This document shows positions 1-5,974 of a stretch of DNA of 64,000 nt, in pieces; position 1 is the stretch's first letter, and each line of letters starts with the position of its first letter. The position numbers and the translations under genes were made by a program. The stretch comes from Bordetella trematum (lineage in GTDB: Bacteria; Pseudomonadota; Gammaproteobacteria; Burkholderiales; Burkholderiaceae_B): NCBI RefSeq assembly GCF_900078335.1, contig NZ_FKBR01000019.1, positions 289,655 to 353,654 on the forward strand. The letters are read 5' to 3'. The notes beneath the pieces are model-generated. The model did not search any database and was not told the origin of the DNA. It saw nothing but the letters and a program-made list of their open reading frames with translations.

Positions 1-784
1 CCAGCTTGTGCCCGTGGGCGATGAAGCGCGTGCTGACCGGCAGACGCTGCCGGATGGCCTGCAGGGCGGAGTTGCCGCCATAGGCCACGACGGCGTCGGC
101 CTGCGCGTAGAGGGCGCTGGCCTCATCGCCACCGGCGCCGCGCCACCAGACCACGGCCAGGCAGTCCGCCAGGGGCGGGTGGACGTCGGCCAGCACGCGC
201 GCGAACCAACCTGCGAACAGCGGCTCGGCGCTGGGCAGCTTGCCGATGTTGCCTGCCTTGACCAGCAGGCCGCATACCAGGCTCCAGAGCGCCAGGGCCG
301 GCACATTGCCGGCCCAGCTGTGCGCCAGCAGGTCGGGGCCATAGGCGCGCACCGCGCCGCCCTTGGCGGCCGGCTGAAAGCCGTCCAGCACCTTGGGGTT
401 GGCGAAATCTTCGGCCACGAAGCGGCGCAGTTGCGGCGCGCGGAAGGTCTTGAGCAGGCCGGTCAGGCCCAGGCGAAGCATGTCGGCGTCATAGCCGGTG
501 ACCAGGGGCAGCAGGGCATCGGCCTGCTGGCGCAGCGGTTCGGCCGGGTCCAGCAGACGTGCGACGGCCCGATCGACGATGGTGATGATCTCGTCGACGC
601 CCAGCGTTTTCAGATGGATGGCGCTGGCGGCGCGCACGCGCTGCGCCAGCGCCTGCATCTGCGCCGGCGACAGGATGGGCAGCGCGACCTCCAGTTGCTG
701 GCCGTCGCGCGCGAAGGATGCCGTGTGCCAGCCGACCTCGTGCGAGGCCAGGCCGGGCAGGTAGCCGGCTTCGATCCGGCGCAC
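1..784 (-). CDS. LuxC-like acyl-CoA reductase (partial, C-terminus outside window)
   Basis: The minus frame reads about 261 residues beginning VRRIEAGYLPGL and continuing with motifs such as AKGGAVRAYGPDLLAHSWAG, and resembles the LuxC/acyl-CoA reductase family, which reduces acyl groups to aldehydes with NADPH. There is no ATG at the head of this frame. A GTG at the start used here is the first plausible codon, but the frame is open further upstream. The product may instead be the second half of a LuxE-LuxC fusion, because adding one base near 805 joins the upstream LuxE frame directly to it. The catalytic cysteine region lies beyond the window edge. The family call rests on remembered conservation and is good, while the start is uncertain. 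Confidence 0.7.
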   Translation of the reverse strand, partial: MRRIEAGYLPGLASHEVGWHTASFARDGQQLEVALPILSPAQMQALAQRVRAASAIHLKTLGVDEIITIVDRAVARLLDPAEPLRQQADALLPLVTGYDADMLRLGLTGLLKTFRAPQLRRFVAEDFANPKVLDGFQPAAKGGAVRAYGPDLLAHSWAGNVPALALWSLVCGLLVKAGNIGKLPSAEPLFAGWFARVLADVHPPLADCLAVVWWRGAGGDEASALYAQADAVVAYGGNSALQAIRQRLPVSTRFIAHGHKL

Positions 785-1875
785 GTTCGTGGCGCGCTGG
801 ACCGCAGGAATTCCTCGACCGCCAGCGAGCAGCCCTTGGCCTGGGCGCCTTCGGCGCGGCCCAGCAGCAGAAAGCCGCCCTCGGCCGGCGCCCCGACATC
901 TTCGGTCAGGATGGTGGTGACGGAATTGAAATTCCCCAGATCGCAATGCGCCAGGATGCCACGCTCGCCCTGTGGCACGTTTTGGCCGGTGACCGGATCG
1001 ACCAGGCGCGAGCGGATCCAGTGGGGCCCGGATTTGACGGACGGCAGCGTGGCGTTGCCGTCGTCGTAGAACTGGGTGCTCAGTTCGGTCATGCCGTACA
1101 TATTGATGCACAGCGTGCGCGGCACGCCCAGCAGCTCGCTCAGCTCGGCGTAGAACGCCTCCAGCGGCAGCTCGCGGGATTGTTTCTTGTAGCCGCCGGT
1201 GTCGAGAATGCGGCTGCCTGCGGGCAGGCGGAAGCGGCGGCCCTCGCGACGCAAGGCATCGATGACGTGCACAAAGCTGAAGCTCGCGCCCAGCAGGGCA
1301 TAGGGGCGGCCTTCGCCTTCGGCCTGCTCCAGCGTCTGCCACAGCGCCTGCAGGTCCATGCCTTGCGGCGTCATGAAATAGCGGCTGTTGGCGGTGCCGA
1401 AGGTCGACTTGGCCAGCGCCAGATAGTGCGCCAGCGAAGAGTTGGGCATGGCCGTCTCGTCGGGGAAGAGAATCCCCATCGGCAGCCGTTGCACACCCTG
1501 CATGAAGCGTTGCGCGAAATGGCGCGTCATCGAGAGGTCGTAGACCTCAAGGTGGGGATGAAAATGCCGCCCGCGCATGTCGGCGCGGGTGGTGCCGCTG
1601 GTCATGAAGACGCGCTCATCGGGGCGCGGCGGCTCGCAGCGCAGCTCCATGGCCTTGAAGGCGTCGATCGGCACGGGCGGGATGTCGCTCCAGGTGGTCA
1701 CGCGCCGTGGCGTGGCGCCGCGCCGCTGGCAGAAACTGCGATAGGCGGGATTGGCACCATACTGGTAGGCGAACAGTCGCAAGGCGAGCTGGTCGAACTG
1801 GGTGTCGCTGCAGCCGTCCTGGGCAATGAATTCGAGTAGATCCGCAAGCGGCGGTTCGACGTGGGTCATGAGCAT
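610..1875 (-). CDS. LuxE-like acyl-protein synthetase, 3' end probably frameshifted
   Basis: About 357 residues match the LuxE acyl-protein synthetase family, which is related to adenylate-forming ligases and passes an activated acyl group to a partner reductase. Visible motifs include FMTSGTTRADMRG (ATP-binding loop, SGTT), ILDTGGYKKQS and INMYGMTELSTQF. After EEFL (codon at 805-807) the frame turns into about 64 Arg/Cys/Pro-rich residues typical of an out-of-phase reading of GC-rich DNA, while the LuxC sequence continues in another frame. I take the true coding end to be near 805. I chose the first ATG of MLMTH because any longer start would run through the TPP aptamer; a second ATG lies two codons on. 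No strong ribosome binding site is visible. Confidence 0.7.
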   Translation of the reverse strand: MLMTHVEPPLADLLEFIAQDGCSDTQFDQLALRLFAYQYGANPAYRSFCQRRGATPRRVTTWSDIPPVPIDAFKAMELRCEPPRPDERVFMTSGTTRADMRGRHFHPHLEVYDLSMTRHFAQRFMQGVQRLPMGILFPDETAMPNSSLAHYLALAKSTFGTANSRYFMTPQGMDLQALWQTLEQAEGEGRPYALLGASFSFVHVIDALRREGRRFRLPAGSRILDTGGYKKQSRELPLEAFYAELSELLGVPRTLCINMYGMTELSTQFYDDGNATLPSVKSGPHWIRSRLVDPVTGQNVPQGERGILAHCDLGNFNSVTTILTEDVGAPAEGGFLLLGRAEGAQAKGCSLAVEEFLRSSAPRTCAGSKPATCPAWPRTRSAGTRHPSRATASNWRSRCPSCRRRRCRRWRSACAPPAPSI

Positions 1876-1935
1876 TCTGGGAGGCCGGTTGATGGATGCT
1901 CCGAAGCCCGGGTGGCCTGGCCCTGTCGAGATCAG

Positions 1936-2010
1936 TGCTCTTCTTACGCCGGCATGAACCGGGTCAAGTTCGCGGGTGTGGATCTCAGCACTGGCGTGCA
2001 CCCCGGAGCA
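1936..2010 (-). promoter_or_regulatory. TPP (thiamine pyrophosphate) riboswitch aptamer, THI element
   Basis: Read on the minus strand the segment carries the conserved THI-box blocks in order: CGGGGTGC, CTGAGA, ACCCGCGAACTTGACC, and CCGGTTCATGCCGGCGTAAGA. The ends TGCTC and GAGCA pair as P1. This matches the TPP aptamer layout known from thiC and thiM leaders. It ends about 60 bases before the LuxE-like ATG and points at that gene. I see no U-tract terminator between the aptamer and the gene, so control of translation is as likely as attenuation. Confidence 0.92.
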
Positions 2011-2096
2011 GGCCTCATGTTAACCCGCAATGCGCCGGCCGGCCCCGGCGCGGACCGGATCTGGCCGCGCGCAGGCATCCTGCGTAAACTGGCGCC

Positions 2097-2711
2097 ATGC
2101 TACGCATCGACCAACTCGGCAAGCGCTACGGCGACCACATCGTCTTTGAAGGCCTGACGCACAGGTTTGCGCCCGGCTGTCTGGCGCTGTGCGAAGAAGA
2201 CAGCACCGGCAAATCCACGCTGCTGGGCATTCTGGCGGGCGCGATCGCCCCGGATGCGGGCGAGGTCTGGATTGAGGGGCGGGCGTTGCACGGGGCTGCC
2301 GAAGGCGCGCGTCGCCGCCTGGCCTATGTGCCGGATAACTGCCTGACCGAACCGCAGCAGACCGGCCGCGGCCTGCTCGAACAGGCCGCGCAGGACAAGG
2401 GCGTGGCGCTGGATGCGGCCGTCTTCGAGCTGGCCGCGGCGCTGGGCCTGATGCCGCATCTGGACAAGCGCCTCGAGCAGATGTCGACCGGGACGCGCCG
2501 CAAGGTCTACCTGACGGCCGCGCAGCTGGGCGCGCCGGCGCTGGTGGTCGCCGATGGCCCCAGCAACGGGCTGGATGCGGCTGCCCGCGGCGTGCTGGCC
2601 GACGTGTTCCGGGCCTGGGGGCGCGATCGTGTGGTGATCTTCGCCAGCCACGACGAGGCGCTGGTCGAGGCCTGCGGCGCGCGTCGCATCGAGGTCGGCG
2701 CGTTGCGTTAA
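2097..2711 (+). CDS. ABC transporter ATP-binding protein with degenerate catalytic motifs
   Basis: This 204-residue protein has the order of an ABC nucleotide-binding domain, but its key motifs are altered. The P-loop reads EEDSTGKST (residues 33-41), so two of the usual glycines are replaced. The signature is MSTGT rather than LSGGQ. Walker B reads VVADGPSNGLD, with Gly at the position of the catalytic glutamate (residue 154). The H-loop histidine in ASHDEA (185) is kept. No permease or binding-protein gene is adjacent; the gene is divergent from the TPP-luxE unit and its stop overlaps that of the next, convergent gene by four bases. It may bind ATP weakly or have a regulatory role; activity is doubtful. 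Confidence 0.75.
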   Translation: MLRIDQLGKRYGDHIVFEGLTHRFAPGCLALCEEDSTGKSTLLGILAGAIAPDAGEVWIEGRALHGAAEGARRRLAYVPDNCLTEPQQTGRGLLEQAAQDKGVALDAAVFELAAALGLMPHLDKRLEQMSTGTRRKVYLTAAQLGAPALVVADGPSNGLDAAARGVLADVFRAWGRDRVVIFASHDEALVEACGARRIEVGALR

Positions 2712-4174
2712 TCCAGTTTTCCGATCGGGAACTGCATATCCTGGTAGCGCACGAAGCGCGAGCCGCGCATCAGGCGGTAGCCCGCCCAGATCAGCAGAAA
2801 CAAGGGGATGCCGATGTAGGTGGCGGCCGCGCCGACCCAGTCGATGCGGTCCTGCAGGAAGGCTTCGTAGTTCTGGCCCAAAGTGATGATCAGGCAGAGC
2901 GTGAACGCAAACAGCGGCCCGAAGGGAAAGAAGGGCGAGACATAGGGCAGATCAGCCAGCCTGCCTCCCTGCTTGAGATAGCCGCGCCGGAAGCGATAGT
3001 GACTCAGCGCGATGCCCAGCCAGGCGATGAAGCCCGTCATGCCAGACGTGTTCAGCAGCCAGATGTAGACCTCGTTGGGGCTGAACACGAAAGACAGAAA
3101 GCACAGCGCGGCGATCGCCGTGGTGGCCAGCAGTGCGCGCAGCGGCACGCCGTGGGCCGTGACGCGCGCAAACCAGGCCGGCGCCTTGCCTTCGCGCGCC
3201 AGTGCGTACAGCATGCGGGTGGCGGCATACATGCCGGAGTTGCCGGCCGACAGCACCGACGTGAGGACCACCGCGTTCATGATGGAGGCCGCCGCCAGCA
3301 GGCCGGCGCGCTCGAAGATGAGGGCAAAGGGGCTGACGCTGATGTCGCCCACGCCGTCGCGCAGCAGATGCGGGTCGGTGTAGGGGATCAGCAGACCGAT
3401 CACGGCAATGGCCAGCACATAGAAAAGCAGGATGCGCCAGAACACCTGGCGCACGGCGCGTGGCAGGTTGCGCGCCGGATCCTTGGATTCTCCGGCTGCA
3501 ATGCCGATCAGCTCGGTGCCCTGGAACGAGAAGCCGACCACCATGGCCACGCCGATCAGGGCGGCGAAACCGCCGGCAAAGGGCGCATCGCCGATGGTGA
3601 GGTTGTGCCAGCCGCCGGTTTCGCCGCCGCGGATGATGCCCAGCAGCATCAGCACGCCCATGGCAATGAAGGCGATCACGGCAATCACCTTGATCAGGGC
3701 GAACCAGAACTCGGCCTCGCCGAAACCGCGCGCCGACAGCGCGTTCAGGCCGAAGGTGATGGCCAGGAACAGCGCGCTCCAATAGACCCCGGGCACGTCG
3801 GGAAACCAGTAGGCCATGACCAGCTGGGCGGCCACCAGATCGACGGCGACCGTGACGGCCCAGTTGTACCAGTAGTTCCAGCCCAGGGCGAAACCGAAGC
3901 CGGGCTCGACATAGCGCGCGCCGTAGGTCGAGAACGAGCCGGCCACGGGCATGGCGGCGGCCAGTTCGCCCAGGCTGGTCATCAGGAAATAGACCATCAG
4001 GCCGATCAGGGCGTAGCCCAGCAGCGCGCCGCCCGGGCCTGCCTGGGCGATGGTGTTGCCGGAGGCCACGAACAGCCCCGTACCGATCGAGCCGCCGACG
4101 GCAATCATGGACAGGTGGCGGGCCGACAGGGTGCGGCGCAGGCCCTCCGGCGTCGAGACGTCGCGGGCGGGCAT
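2708..4174 (-). CDS. Amino-acid permease, APC superfamily (LysP-like), copy 1
   Basis: A 488-residue inner-membrane transporter with about 12 hydrophobic segments. The N-terminus carries LSMIAVGGSIGTGLFVASG, the first-helix glycine motif of the AAT/APC family, followed by GPGGALLGY and SLGELAAAMP. Length and motifs fit LysP and related basic amino-acid:H+ symporters, although substrate cannot be read from sequence. I start at ATG for MPARDVS. A TTG nine codons upstream (4201) has a good GGAAG ribosome site seven bases before it and could be the true start. It lies directly downstream of a close paralogue on the same strand. Confidence 0.88.
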   Translation of the reverse strand: MPARDVSTPEGLRRTLSARHLSMIAVGGSIGTGLFVASGNTIAQAGPGGALLGYALIGLMVYFLMTSLGELAAAMPVAGSFSTYGARYVEPGFGFALGWNYWYNWAVTVAVDLVAAQLVMAYWFPDVPGVYWSALFLAITFGLNALSARGFGEAEFWFALIKVIAVIAFIAMGVLMLLGIIRGGETGGWHNLTIGDAPFAGGFAALIGVAMVVGFSFQGTELIGIAAGESKDPARNLPRAVRQVFWRILLFYVLAIAVIGLLIPYTDPHLLRDGVGDISVSPFALIFERAGLLAAASIMNAVVLTSVLSAGNSGMYAATRMLYALAREGKAPAWFARVTAHGVPLRALLATTAIAALCFLSFVFSPNEVYIWLLNTSGMTGFIAWLGIALSHYRFRRGYLKQGGRLADLPYVSPFFPFGPLFAFTLCLIITLGQNYEAFLQDRIDWVGAAATYIGIPLFLLIWAGYRLMRGSRFVRYQDMQFPIGKLD

Positions 4175-4278
4175 GGGGGTGGCGCGATTGGGATCAGCCA
4201 AGATCGTGCTTCCTTCAGGGGGCGGGCCGGATGGGCCTGTTGGCGTAAAACGGGGGAGCATAACGCATGGGCTGGGCC

Positions 4279-5793
4279 TCAAGGGCGCGCCGCATCGTCG
4301 CCGGGGCGGGGCTCGTCCTGGTAGTCGAAACGCATATCCTGGTAGCGGATCCAGCGTGATCGGCGCATCAGCCGGTAGCCTGCCCAGGTTGCCAGGAACA
4401 GCACGATGCCGAGGTAGGTGGACAGCGCCCCGCCCCAGTCGATGCGATCCTGCAGGAAGGCCTCGTAGTTCTGGCCCAATGTGATCACCAGGCACAGCAC
4501 GAAGGCCAGCAGCGGCCCGCAGGGAAAGAGGCCGGCGCGATAGGGCAGGGCGGCCGGATCGTGGCCGTGCAGCAGGTAACCCTTGCGGAAGCGATAGTGG
4601 CTGACGGCGATGCTCAGCCAGATGATGAACTCGGTCATGCCGGCCAGATTGAGCAGCCAGATATAGACCGCCTGCGGGCTGTAGATGGCGCTGAACAGGC
4701 AAAGGCTGGCCAGGGCGGTGGTGCCGGCCAGGGCATGGACCGGCACGCCCGAGCGCGACAGGCGCGCAAAACGGCGCGGCGCCATGCCTTCGCGGGCCAT
4801 GTTGAACAGCATGCGGGTGGCCGCGTACATGCCCGAGTTGCCGGCCGACAGCACCGAGGTCAGGATGACGGCGTTCATCACGGTGGCCGCCGAGAGCAGG
4901 CCGGCCTTCTCGAACACCAGGGTGAAGGGGCTGACCGCGATGTCGCTGACATCGCTGCGCAGCAGCTGCGGGTCGGTATAAGGCAGCAGCAGGCCGATCA
5001 CGGCGATCGACAGCACGTAGAACAGCAGGATGCGCCAGAACACCCGCTTGATGGCCAGCGGCACGTTGCGGCGCGGATTCTCGGACTCGCCGGCAGCCAC
5101 GCCGACCAGCTCGGTGCCCTGGAAGGAATAGGCCACCACCATGGCCACGCCTACCAGCGTGGCGAAGTTGCCGACGAAGGGCGCCTCGCCCACACTCCAG
5201 TTGGACAGGCCCGGCGAGGGCACATCGTGCACGATGCCCGAGAGCATGGCCACCCCGGTGATCAGGAAGCACACCACGGCGATTACCTTGATCAGCGCGA
5301 ACCAGTATTCGCTTTCGCCGAAACCGCGCGCCGAAAAGGCATTCAGGCCCAGCATCAGCAGCAGGAACAGGCAGCTCCAGAGAATGCCGGGCACGTCCGG
5401 CAGCCAGTAGGCCATGACGAGCTGGGCCGCCACCAGATCCACCGCCACCACGACCGCCCAGCTGAACCAGAAGTTCCAGCCCAGGGCAAAGCCCAGGCCT
5501 TCATCGACATAGCGCGCGGCATAGGTGGCAAAGGAGCCGGGCACTGGCATGAAGGCGGCCAGTTCGCCCAGGCTGGTCATGATGAAGTAGACCATCAGGC
5601 CGAGCACGAGGTAGGTAAGCAGCGCGCCGCCGGGGCCGGCCTGGGCGATGGTGGCGCCGGAGGCCACGAACAGCCCCGTGCCGATGGCCCCGCCGATGGC
5701 GATCATGGTGAGATGGCGCGGTTTGAGCACCCGCCGCAGATGCGGGGCCTCGGCCTCGAAGGGCTGCGGCCCGGGCGAGTGGGAGGCGGACAT
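4279..5793 (-). CDS. Amino-acid permease, APC superfamily (LysP-like), copy 2
   Basis: A 504-residue membrane protein with the same fold and order of motifs as the neighbouring permease: LTMIAIGGAIGTGLFVASG near residue 30, then GPGGALLTY, SLGELAAFMP and QGTELVGVAAGES in mid-protein. The two differ most in the N-terminal tail and the C-terminus (here ending DDAARP). The ATG is supported by an AAAGGAA ribosome site. The pair looks like a tandem duplication, with both genes on the minus strand about 100 bases apart. Uptake of basic or other amino acids by proton symport is inferred from the family. Confidence 0.88.
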   Translation of the reverse strand: MSASHSPGPQPFEAEAPHLRRVLKPRHLTMIAIGGAIGTGLFVASGATIAQAGPGGALLTYLVLGLMVYFIMTSLGELAAFMPVPGSFATYAARYVDEGLGFALGWNFWFSWAVVVAVDLVAAQLVMAYWLPDVPGILWSCLFLLLMLGLNAFSARGFGESEYWFALIKVIAVVCFLITGVAMLSGIVHDVPSPGLSNWSVGEAPFVGNFATLVGVAMVVAYSFQGTELVGVAAGESENPRRNVPLAIKRVFWRILLFYVLSIAVIGLLLPYTDPQLLRSDVSDIAVSPFTLVFEKAGLLSAATVMNAVILTSVLSAGNSGMYAATRMLFNMAREGMAPRRFARLSRSGVPVHALAGTTALASLCLFSAIYSPQAVYIWLLNLAGMTEFIIWLSIAVSHYRFRKGYLLHGHDPAALPYRAGLFPCGPLLAFVLCLVITLGQNYEAFLQDRIDWGGALSTYLGIVLFLATWAGYRLMRRSRWIRYQDMRFDYQDEPRPGDDAARP

Positions 5794-5974
5794 ATCGGTG
5801 ATTCCTTTGCGTACTGATTCCGCCGCAGGCGGAAAAGAGGCGAAAGTGTATCGCGCGGGCGTCGGCCGGCTCTGTCCCCATTGTCTGAAAACCATGCGCG
5901 CCCTCTCGGGCCACAGTAAATCCATGCCAGCGCATACACTGTGGGCCGACACTGTTTTCCGGGCCTGCCCCATC

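Follow-up and report, generated by a model that had tools for sequence, protein, structure and literature searches.

The DNA analysed here (the window, 64,000 nucleotides) carries on its minus strand a TPP riboswitch aptamer followed by genes for a LuxE-like acyl-protein synthetase and a LuxC-like acyl-CoA reductase. The initial annotation had described the same arrangement: it quoted the THI-box blocks, which are present, and it placed a LuxE-like gene, not a thiamine gene, next on this strand with the LuxC-like gene after it, which the family scores listed below bear out. It also proposed running the Rfam TPP model on the region. With cmscan, RF00059 scored 57.4 bits (gathering score 54.3; E 1.2e-8) at window 2015-1924, minus strand; the match covers model positions 1-105, that is, a full-length aptamer, and it is the only Rfam match above its gathering score within the window. 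The interval first given, 1876-2010, contains most of the aptamer, but the aptamer itself lies at 1924-2015, and 1876-1923 is leader before luxE. The features of the locus are the following:

1..784, minus strand: luxC-like acyl-CoA reductase gene, first part (PF05893, 277.6 bits against a cut-off of 21)
784-782, minus strand: possible luxC start GTG; the usual ATG position, 790-788, reads ACG
610..1869, minus strand: luxE-like acyl-protein synthetase gene (PF04443, 65.9 bits against a cut-off of 24.9)
790-1869, minus strand: part of luxE that is homologous to relatives
1869-1867, minus strand: luxE-like start ATG, a start codon conserved in the alignment of relatives
1870..1875, minus strand: ATGCTC directly before the luxE start codon, the complement of 1896-1901 (GAGCAT); it may sequester the start site
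1898..1909, minus strand: candidate switch element GGGCTTCGGAGC, whose alternative partners could be the 5' strand of P1 or the luxE ribosome-binding site and start
1924-2015, minus strand: TPP riboswitch aptamer (THI element, RF00059), a Rfam covariance match
2004..2010, minus strand: 5' strand of aptamer helix P1, TGCTCCG, complementary to leader 1897-1903; core of inverted repeat I1

The initial annotation spoke of a gene pair. Both genes do lie behind the aptamer, with 54 nt between it and luxE, but they make up one third of a six-gene operon. This operon crosses the left edge of the window, and the genes outside were read on the same contig (locus L008, 11016-17001). It consists of the luxE-like and luxC-like genes and of genes for an ABC ATPase, a permease, an NMT1/THI5-type binding protein, and a short-chain dehydrogenase (SDR), all on one strand and overlapping or separated by short gaps. 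The importer part (binding protein PF09084, 161.4 bits; ATPase PF00005; permease PF00528) has the gene composition of the ThiXYZ type. We found no ThDP-dependent enzyme among the six operon genes that could be the reason for TPP control.

At the junction of luxE and luxC, nine relatives present an ATGA overlap of stop and start codons, which reads ACGA in the window (790-787). Both the stop codon of luxE and the ATG of luxC are lost by this change; thus, luxE reads through, its frame extending 60 codons (stop included) to 610, and luxC has to start elsewhere. The change may have impaired the operon copy in the window, or it may be an error of the draft assembly. The host assembly comprises 4.4 Mb in 50 contigs. 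The host genome has a second, weaker TPP site 5' of thiC (43 bits, below the cut-off).

Conservation of the aptamer and the gene order

We scanned named genomes with an alignment of 18 LuxE sequences and confirmed at least 389 relatives. The best 80 loci of these 389 were used for the counts, which therefore describe the closest relatives. Among the matches listed, the closest named LuxE relatives belonged to Achromobacter and Bordetella, which suggests a Bordetella-like host within the Burkholderiales. The complete order luxE, luxC, ATPase, permease, binding protein, and SDR was found on one strand in 72/80 loci (blastp, at least 50% identity to the proteins of the window), and contig ends interrupted it in the remaining eight.

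The initial annotation had suggested inspecting whether the aptamer is kept upstream of luxE in related genomes, and it is. Of the same 80 loci, 79 have a Rfam TPP aptamer 5' of luxE at a distance below 1.3 kb (coordinate match within the contig), and 36 of these 79 exceed the Rfam gathering score. The sole miss was L101, whose contig starts about 265 bp before luxE. The distance from aptamer to luxE was at most 134 nt in 60/79 genomes. Our own covariance model of the clade, R1, agreed in 79/80 loci and also matched L010-L013; it is not independent, 13 of these aptamers being its building set. It scored the window aptamer at 89.1 bits, with the window sequence in its building set.

The association of the TPP aptamer with this operon is kept in Beta-, Alpha-, and Gammaproteobacteria. 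For plasmid records, 26 were matched by DNA and five loci were read. Four of the five presented an aptamer above the gathering score: Azospirillum lipoferum, two Pantoea, and Pseudomonas silvicola. The Azospirillum lipoferum plasmid carries all six genes in the same order, and that of Pseudomonas silvicola carries luxE, luxC, and SDR pieces. Both Pantoea plasmids (L011 and L013) keep the aptamer, luxE, luxC, and SDR without adjoining importer genes of this type, which points to luxE-luxC-SDR as the core of the operon. Next to these Pantoea cores lie genes for peptidases and a further set of ABC genes. A Caballeronia locus (L014) was rejected as a relative since its DNA match (query 1096-1531) lies only in a divergent ABC ATPase gene and it has no luxE match.

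As a control, we used two genome samples with a LuxE match in 18/151 and 8/369 genomes, the genome of the window being in both. R1 matched in 16/17 loci inside this LuxE clade vs. 0/9 outside it, in flanks of about 1.5 kb; among the nine outside loci, L040 has a LuxE score under the cut-off. The in-clade genome G076 (L020/L125) carries all six genes and no TPP aptamer by R1 or by Rfam (E up to 1, L125 4400-6200). Its operon spans L125 5963-11807, and a tRNA gene is found about 1 kb upstream. Besides, a distant type of LuxE-LuxC pair (21-24% LuxE identity) is present in part of the family's genomes (L015, L016, and L017), with no TPP aptamer in the flanks searched.

The leader of luxE

In the window, the pairing between the P1 5' strand and the leader is exact over 7 bases. 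Inverted repeat I8 (1870-1875/1896-1901) has 6/6 pairs with 20 nt between its arms and could sequester the luxE start. Across 12 leaders from close relatives, the candidate switch element hardly varies. A CTTCGGAGC-like element 3' of the aptamer is common to the leaders; it is complementary on one side to the 5' strand of P1 and on the other to the sequence at the ribosome-binding site.

We compared the duplexes of element and start site in 50 leaders (49 of the 80 loci plus the window), for which the element was picked by eye and the start codons were called by a script, some of them looking wrong. The mean was -16.0 kcal/mol for a leader's own duplex, -13.4 for swapped, and -10.5 for shuffled ones. 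In 5000 permutations, a mean as good as the own one never occurred, relatedness being uncorrected. The median of their own shuffles was beaten by 45/50 leaders and the 5% quantile by 29/50. The duplex of the window itself is weak (-9.0, with its start misplaced). Complementarity to P1 is present in most relatives, and it beats shuffles at 5% in only 1/49 single leaders. We rejected the fold of the window leader as proof of switching because its free energy is no better than that of shuffles (z 0.25).

In this exploratory comparison, the leader pairings fit a putative translational repression by TPP. When TPP is scarce, the aptamer would stay open, the switch element would pair with the P1 5' strand, and the luxE start would be free. 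When TPP is bound, P1 would form, the switch element would pair over the luxE start site, and translation would be off.

Thiamine genes in the operon and in the genomes that carry it

The initial annotation offered two readings of the odd gene content: a thiamine-related role for the acyl reductase pair or the loss of an intervening gene. The second finds no support in the genome of the window, where the gap is 54 nt and the aligned Bordetella and Achromobacter relatives are similar. It does hold elsewhere. In 15 of the best 80 loci of 389, 12 of them titled Ramlibacter, a gene lies between the aptamer and luxE, and it is thiD (TIGR00097, 316 bits against 205, one copy scanned). Four Variovorax loci (L090, L092, L095, and L099) have a gap of 252-280 bp at this place, and in both of the loci read the gap contains thiD remnants (L095 9719-10005 and L099 4729-4973); here, thiD was apparently lost after insertion. 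The initial annotation had named as evidence against the link a thiamine gene conserved at this place in close relatives. Such a gene appears only in a more distant group, mostly Ramlibacter, where its insertion strengthens the link to thiamine rather than explaining it away.

Other thiamine genes join the operon at its far end. By scanning, we detected a ThiE-domain gene (PF02581) 3' of the SDR gene in the Ramlibacter loci L094, L106, and L109; in L103 and L104, a gene of this type is assigned from its position. The ThiE-domain genes of L106 and L109 score below the NCBI thiE cut-off (129.1 and 123.6 vs. 145.1). Beyond the SDR gene, L096 carries a thiO-type gene (TIGR02352, 208.2 bits, below the cut-off of 250.8), a 72-codon open reading frame at the expected place of thiS, thiG, and a thiE-type gene. 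The thiamine role is thus strongly supported by a ThiXYZ-like importer, by an aptamer kept in three proteobacterial classes, and by thiD, thiE-type, or thiO-thiG genes that share the operon in some relatives, and we regard it as near certain.

ThiC was present in 69 of 81 carriers, so the operon would be a supplement for most of them. It was not found in 12/81 genomes (4/50 and 8/31). Four of these are isolates: Ramlibacter montanisoli, R. monticola, R. paludis, and R. cellulosilyticus. The other eight are MAGs, in which the missing ThiC may be due to genome incompleteness. Ten of the 12 belong to the 15 loci with thiD, and the others are L101, cut by the contig end, and L119. Of the first 50 genomes, nine have this thiD and four lack ThiC; all four would belong to the nine by chance with a probability of 5.5e-4, relatedness being uncorrected.

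The four ThiC-less isolates retain ThiG, ThiD, and the ThiE domain, and their ThiG lies behind their second TPP site. The thiD of the operon is their only ThiD match above 300 bits; the second match has 109-122 bits in each. Since ThiC is absent and the other three are kept, these isolates seem to make thiazole and to need pyrimidine from outside. FAMP (aminopyrimidine) salvage employs ThiY, a deformylase, and TenA. We found TenA in 5/13 genomes examined, including two of the four ThiC-less isolates, and rejected it as a general partner of the operon on this count. It was not found in the genome of the window or in the other two ThiC-less isolates; thus, the route through FAMP and TenA is not what the carriers have in common.

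Possible function of the operon

At the protein level, the fold of the binding protein was modelled from 25 sequences (pLDDT 82). The predicted fold was closest to ThiY (3ix1; Z 32.2, 292 aligned residues, rmsd 2.4), followed by the thiamin-bound binder 4nmy (Z 30.4), Thi5 HMP synthases (27), and sulphonate binders (about 26). With Foldseek, ThiY and 4nmy were tied at 1e-20. ThiY-type folds differ in their ligand, which counts against reading the substrate from the fold. For the LuxE-like protein, the only solved relative at E 0.001 was LuxE of 7xc6, and the C-terminal KGCS motifs of the two align. This motif is invariant in 18/18 sequences, and we take its cysteine to be the acyl carrier. Cys296 of LuxC, in QQGCYSP, is invariant in 11/11 sequences, and the YxxxK pair of the SDR is kept in 11/11. 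Scores far below the NCBIfam cut-offs for the luminescence equivalogs (LuxE 62.6 vs. 550, LuxC 75.2 vs. 750) make both proteins relatives of those families, not members.

A LuxE-type ligase, a LuxC-type reductase, and an SDR together suggest a path from acid through aldehyde to alcohol. The reading we lean towards is a salvage operon, repressed by TPP, that would import a thiamine-derived carboxylic acid and reduce it via the aldehyde to HMP. The most likely substrate is 4-amino-2-methylpyrimidine-5-carboxylate, a known breakdown product of thiamine. What makes this pyrimidine acid the best fit is that the operon gains thiD and that the missing enzyme is ThiC, not ThiG. The ABC importer with its ThiY/THI5-type binding protein would take up the acid. 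The LuxE-like enzyme would use ATP to turn the carboxylate into an acyl-adenylate and keep the acyl group on its cysteine, and the LuxC-like enzyme would receive it as a thioester and reduce it with NADPH to the aldehyde. The SDR would then turn the aldehyde into the alcohol, HMP, which ThiD would phosphorylate and whose product ThiE would couple to thiazole. We infer each of these enzymatic steps from protein families.

A different substrate seems unlikely to us. It could be thiamine acetic acid, converted to thiamine, or 4-methylthiazole-5-acetic acid, converted to the thiazole alcohol. The former is, together with FAMP, a known thiamine metabolite (Amos and Neal 1970, as cited in PMC7575681), and a thiamin-bound protein was the second-best fold match of the binding protein. 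However, ThiG, ThiD, and the ThiE domain, all kept in the four ThiC-less isolates, would be superfluous for the salvage of whole thiamine. The part these isolates miss is the pyrimidine and not the thiazole, and the gene that joins the operon in 15/80 loci, thiD, encodes the pyrimidine kinase.

We also doubt that the importer is an ordinary FAMP/HMP ThiXYZ, next to which LuxE, LuxC, and the SDR would recycle an aldehyde or acid of thiamine turnover, or would serve a non-thiamine acid that is merely co-regulated. The two Pantoea plasmids keep the aptamer with luxE, luxC, and SDR in the absence of the importer, which argues that TPP control targets the reductase module itself. The binding protein is closest in fold to ThiY, a FAMP binder, and most carriers have ThiC, both of which count for this reading; TenA, the enzyme of the FAMP route, was found in 5/13 genomes examined and missed in that of the window, which counts against it. 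Finally, it is very improbable that the aptamer is misplaced and serves a lost thiamine gene with luxE and luxC as bystanders: such loss does occur, as the two Variovorax loci show, but the aptamer precedes luxE in 79/80 loci, the six-gene order is kept in 72/80 (best 80 of 389), distances of at most 134 nt in 60/79 leave no room for another gene, and the conservation counts (79/80, and 16/17 vs. 0/9 in the clade control) rule out a chance aptamer.

The proposed salvage of a pyrimidine acid can be compared with known systems. As in ThiXYZ, a pyrimidine importer regulated by TPP, an ABC ATPase, one permease, and an NMT1/THI5-family binding protein of predicted ThiY-like fold stand behind a TPP riboswitch. 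Unlike ThiXYZ, the binding protein is 18% identical to ThiY over the aligned part, genes for an acid reductase and an SDR belong to the same operon, and TenA was found in only 5/13 carriers examined. As in the fatty acid reductase of the luciferase system (LuxC-LuxE, with LuxD), genes for a LuxE-type ligase and a LuxC-type reductase adjoin, the KGCS motif is common with LuxE of 7xc6, and the LuxC cysteine is conserved (11/11). In contrast to that system, the six operon genes include no luxD, luxA, or luxB and present an SDR and a thiamine-type importer instead. FAMP salvage and the proposed route would both return damaged thiamine pyrimidine to HMP, the former with hydrolases acting on an amine and the latter, judging from the families, with an acid ligase and two reductases. 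Use of carboxythiazole (cHET) as a thiamine precursor has been reported (PMC5899164) and likewise makes a carboxylated thiamine moiety an exchangeable precursor. There, however, the moiety is the thiazole and not the pyrimidine, and the opening of the abstract mentions no acid reductase or TPP-controlled operon of this kind.

TPP control of importers for thiamine and its precursors is well known (PMC3766115), and the main text of that study contains no occurrence of LuxE, reductase, Bordetella, Comamonas, or Comamonadaceae. In the open full-text literature, supplements, RegPrecise, and subscription papers apart, we found no description of a LuxE-LuxC acid reductase linked to thiamine. RegPrecise or supplements may list the association without a proposed chemistry. 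We give an even chance to the wider reading that this is an undescribed B1 route, in which a pyrimidine acid that others excrete as thiamine waste would be taken up and reduced in two steps to HMP, some ThiC-less Ramlibacter would live on it, and a Lux-type LuxE-LuxC pair would have been recruited from fatty-aldehyde chemistry and, together with an SDR, placed under a TPP riboswitch.

This gives a testable function to LuxE-LuxC homologues that carry the annotations 'long-chain fatty acid-CoA ligase' and 'acyl-CoA reductase' (Azospirillum and Pantoea records), and under the salvage reading a breakdown product of thiamine would have a use. HMP, FAMP, AmMP, HET, and cHET are measured in environmental studies (PMC10881298). 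If the reading is true, a pyrimidine carboxylate joins these exchangeable B1 vitamers, it may explain the pyrimidine source of some ThiC-less bacteria that make thiazole, and an enzyme pair of the bioluminescence type has been recruited for vitamin repair.

Regarding the neighborhood of the operon, genes for a KdgT-type permease, a D-threonate-kinase-like protein, a PdxA-like protein, and a GntR protein lie in a row beside it on the other strand, beyond the edge of the window (L008 6765-10967). Divergent from the riboswitch, window 2097-2711 is a lone open reading frame of 204 residues that looks by eye like an ABC ATPase. The usual Walker A motif is GxxGxGKS/T, and the corresponding region here reads EEDSTGKST. 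Window 2708-5800, on the minus strand, encodes two similar proteins in tandem that, also by eye, resemble amino acid permeases.
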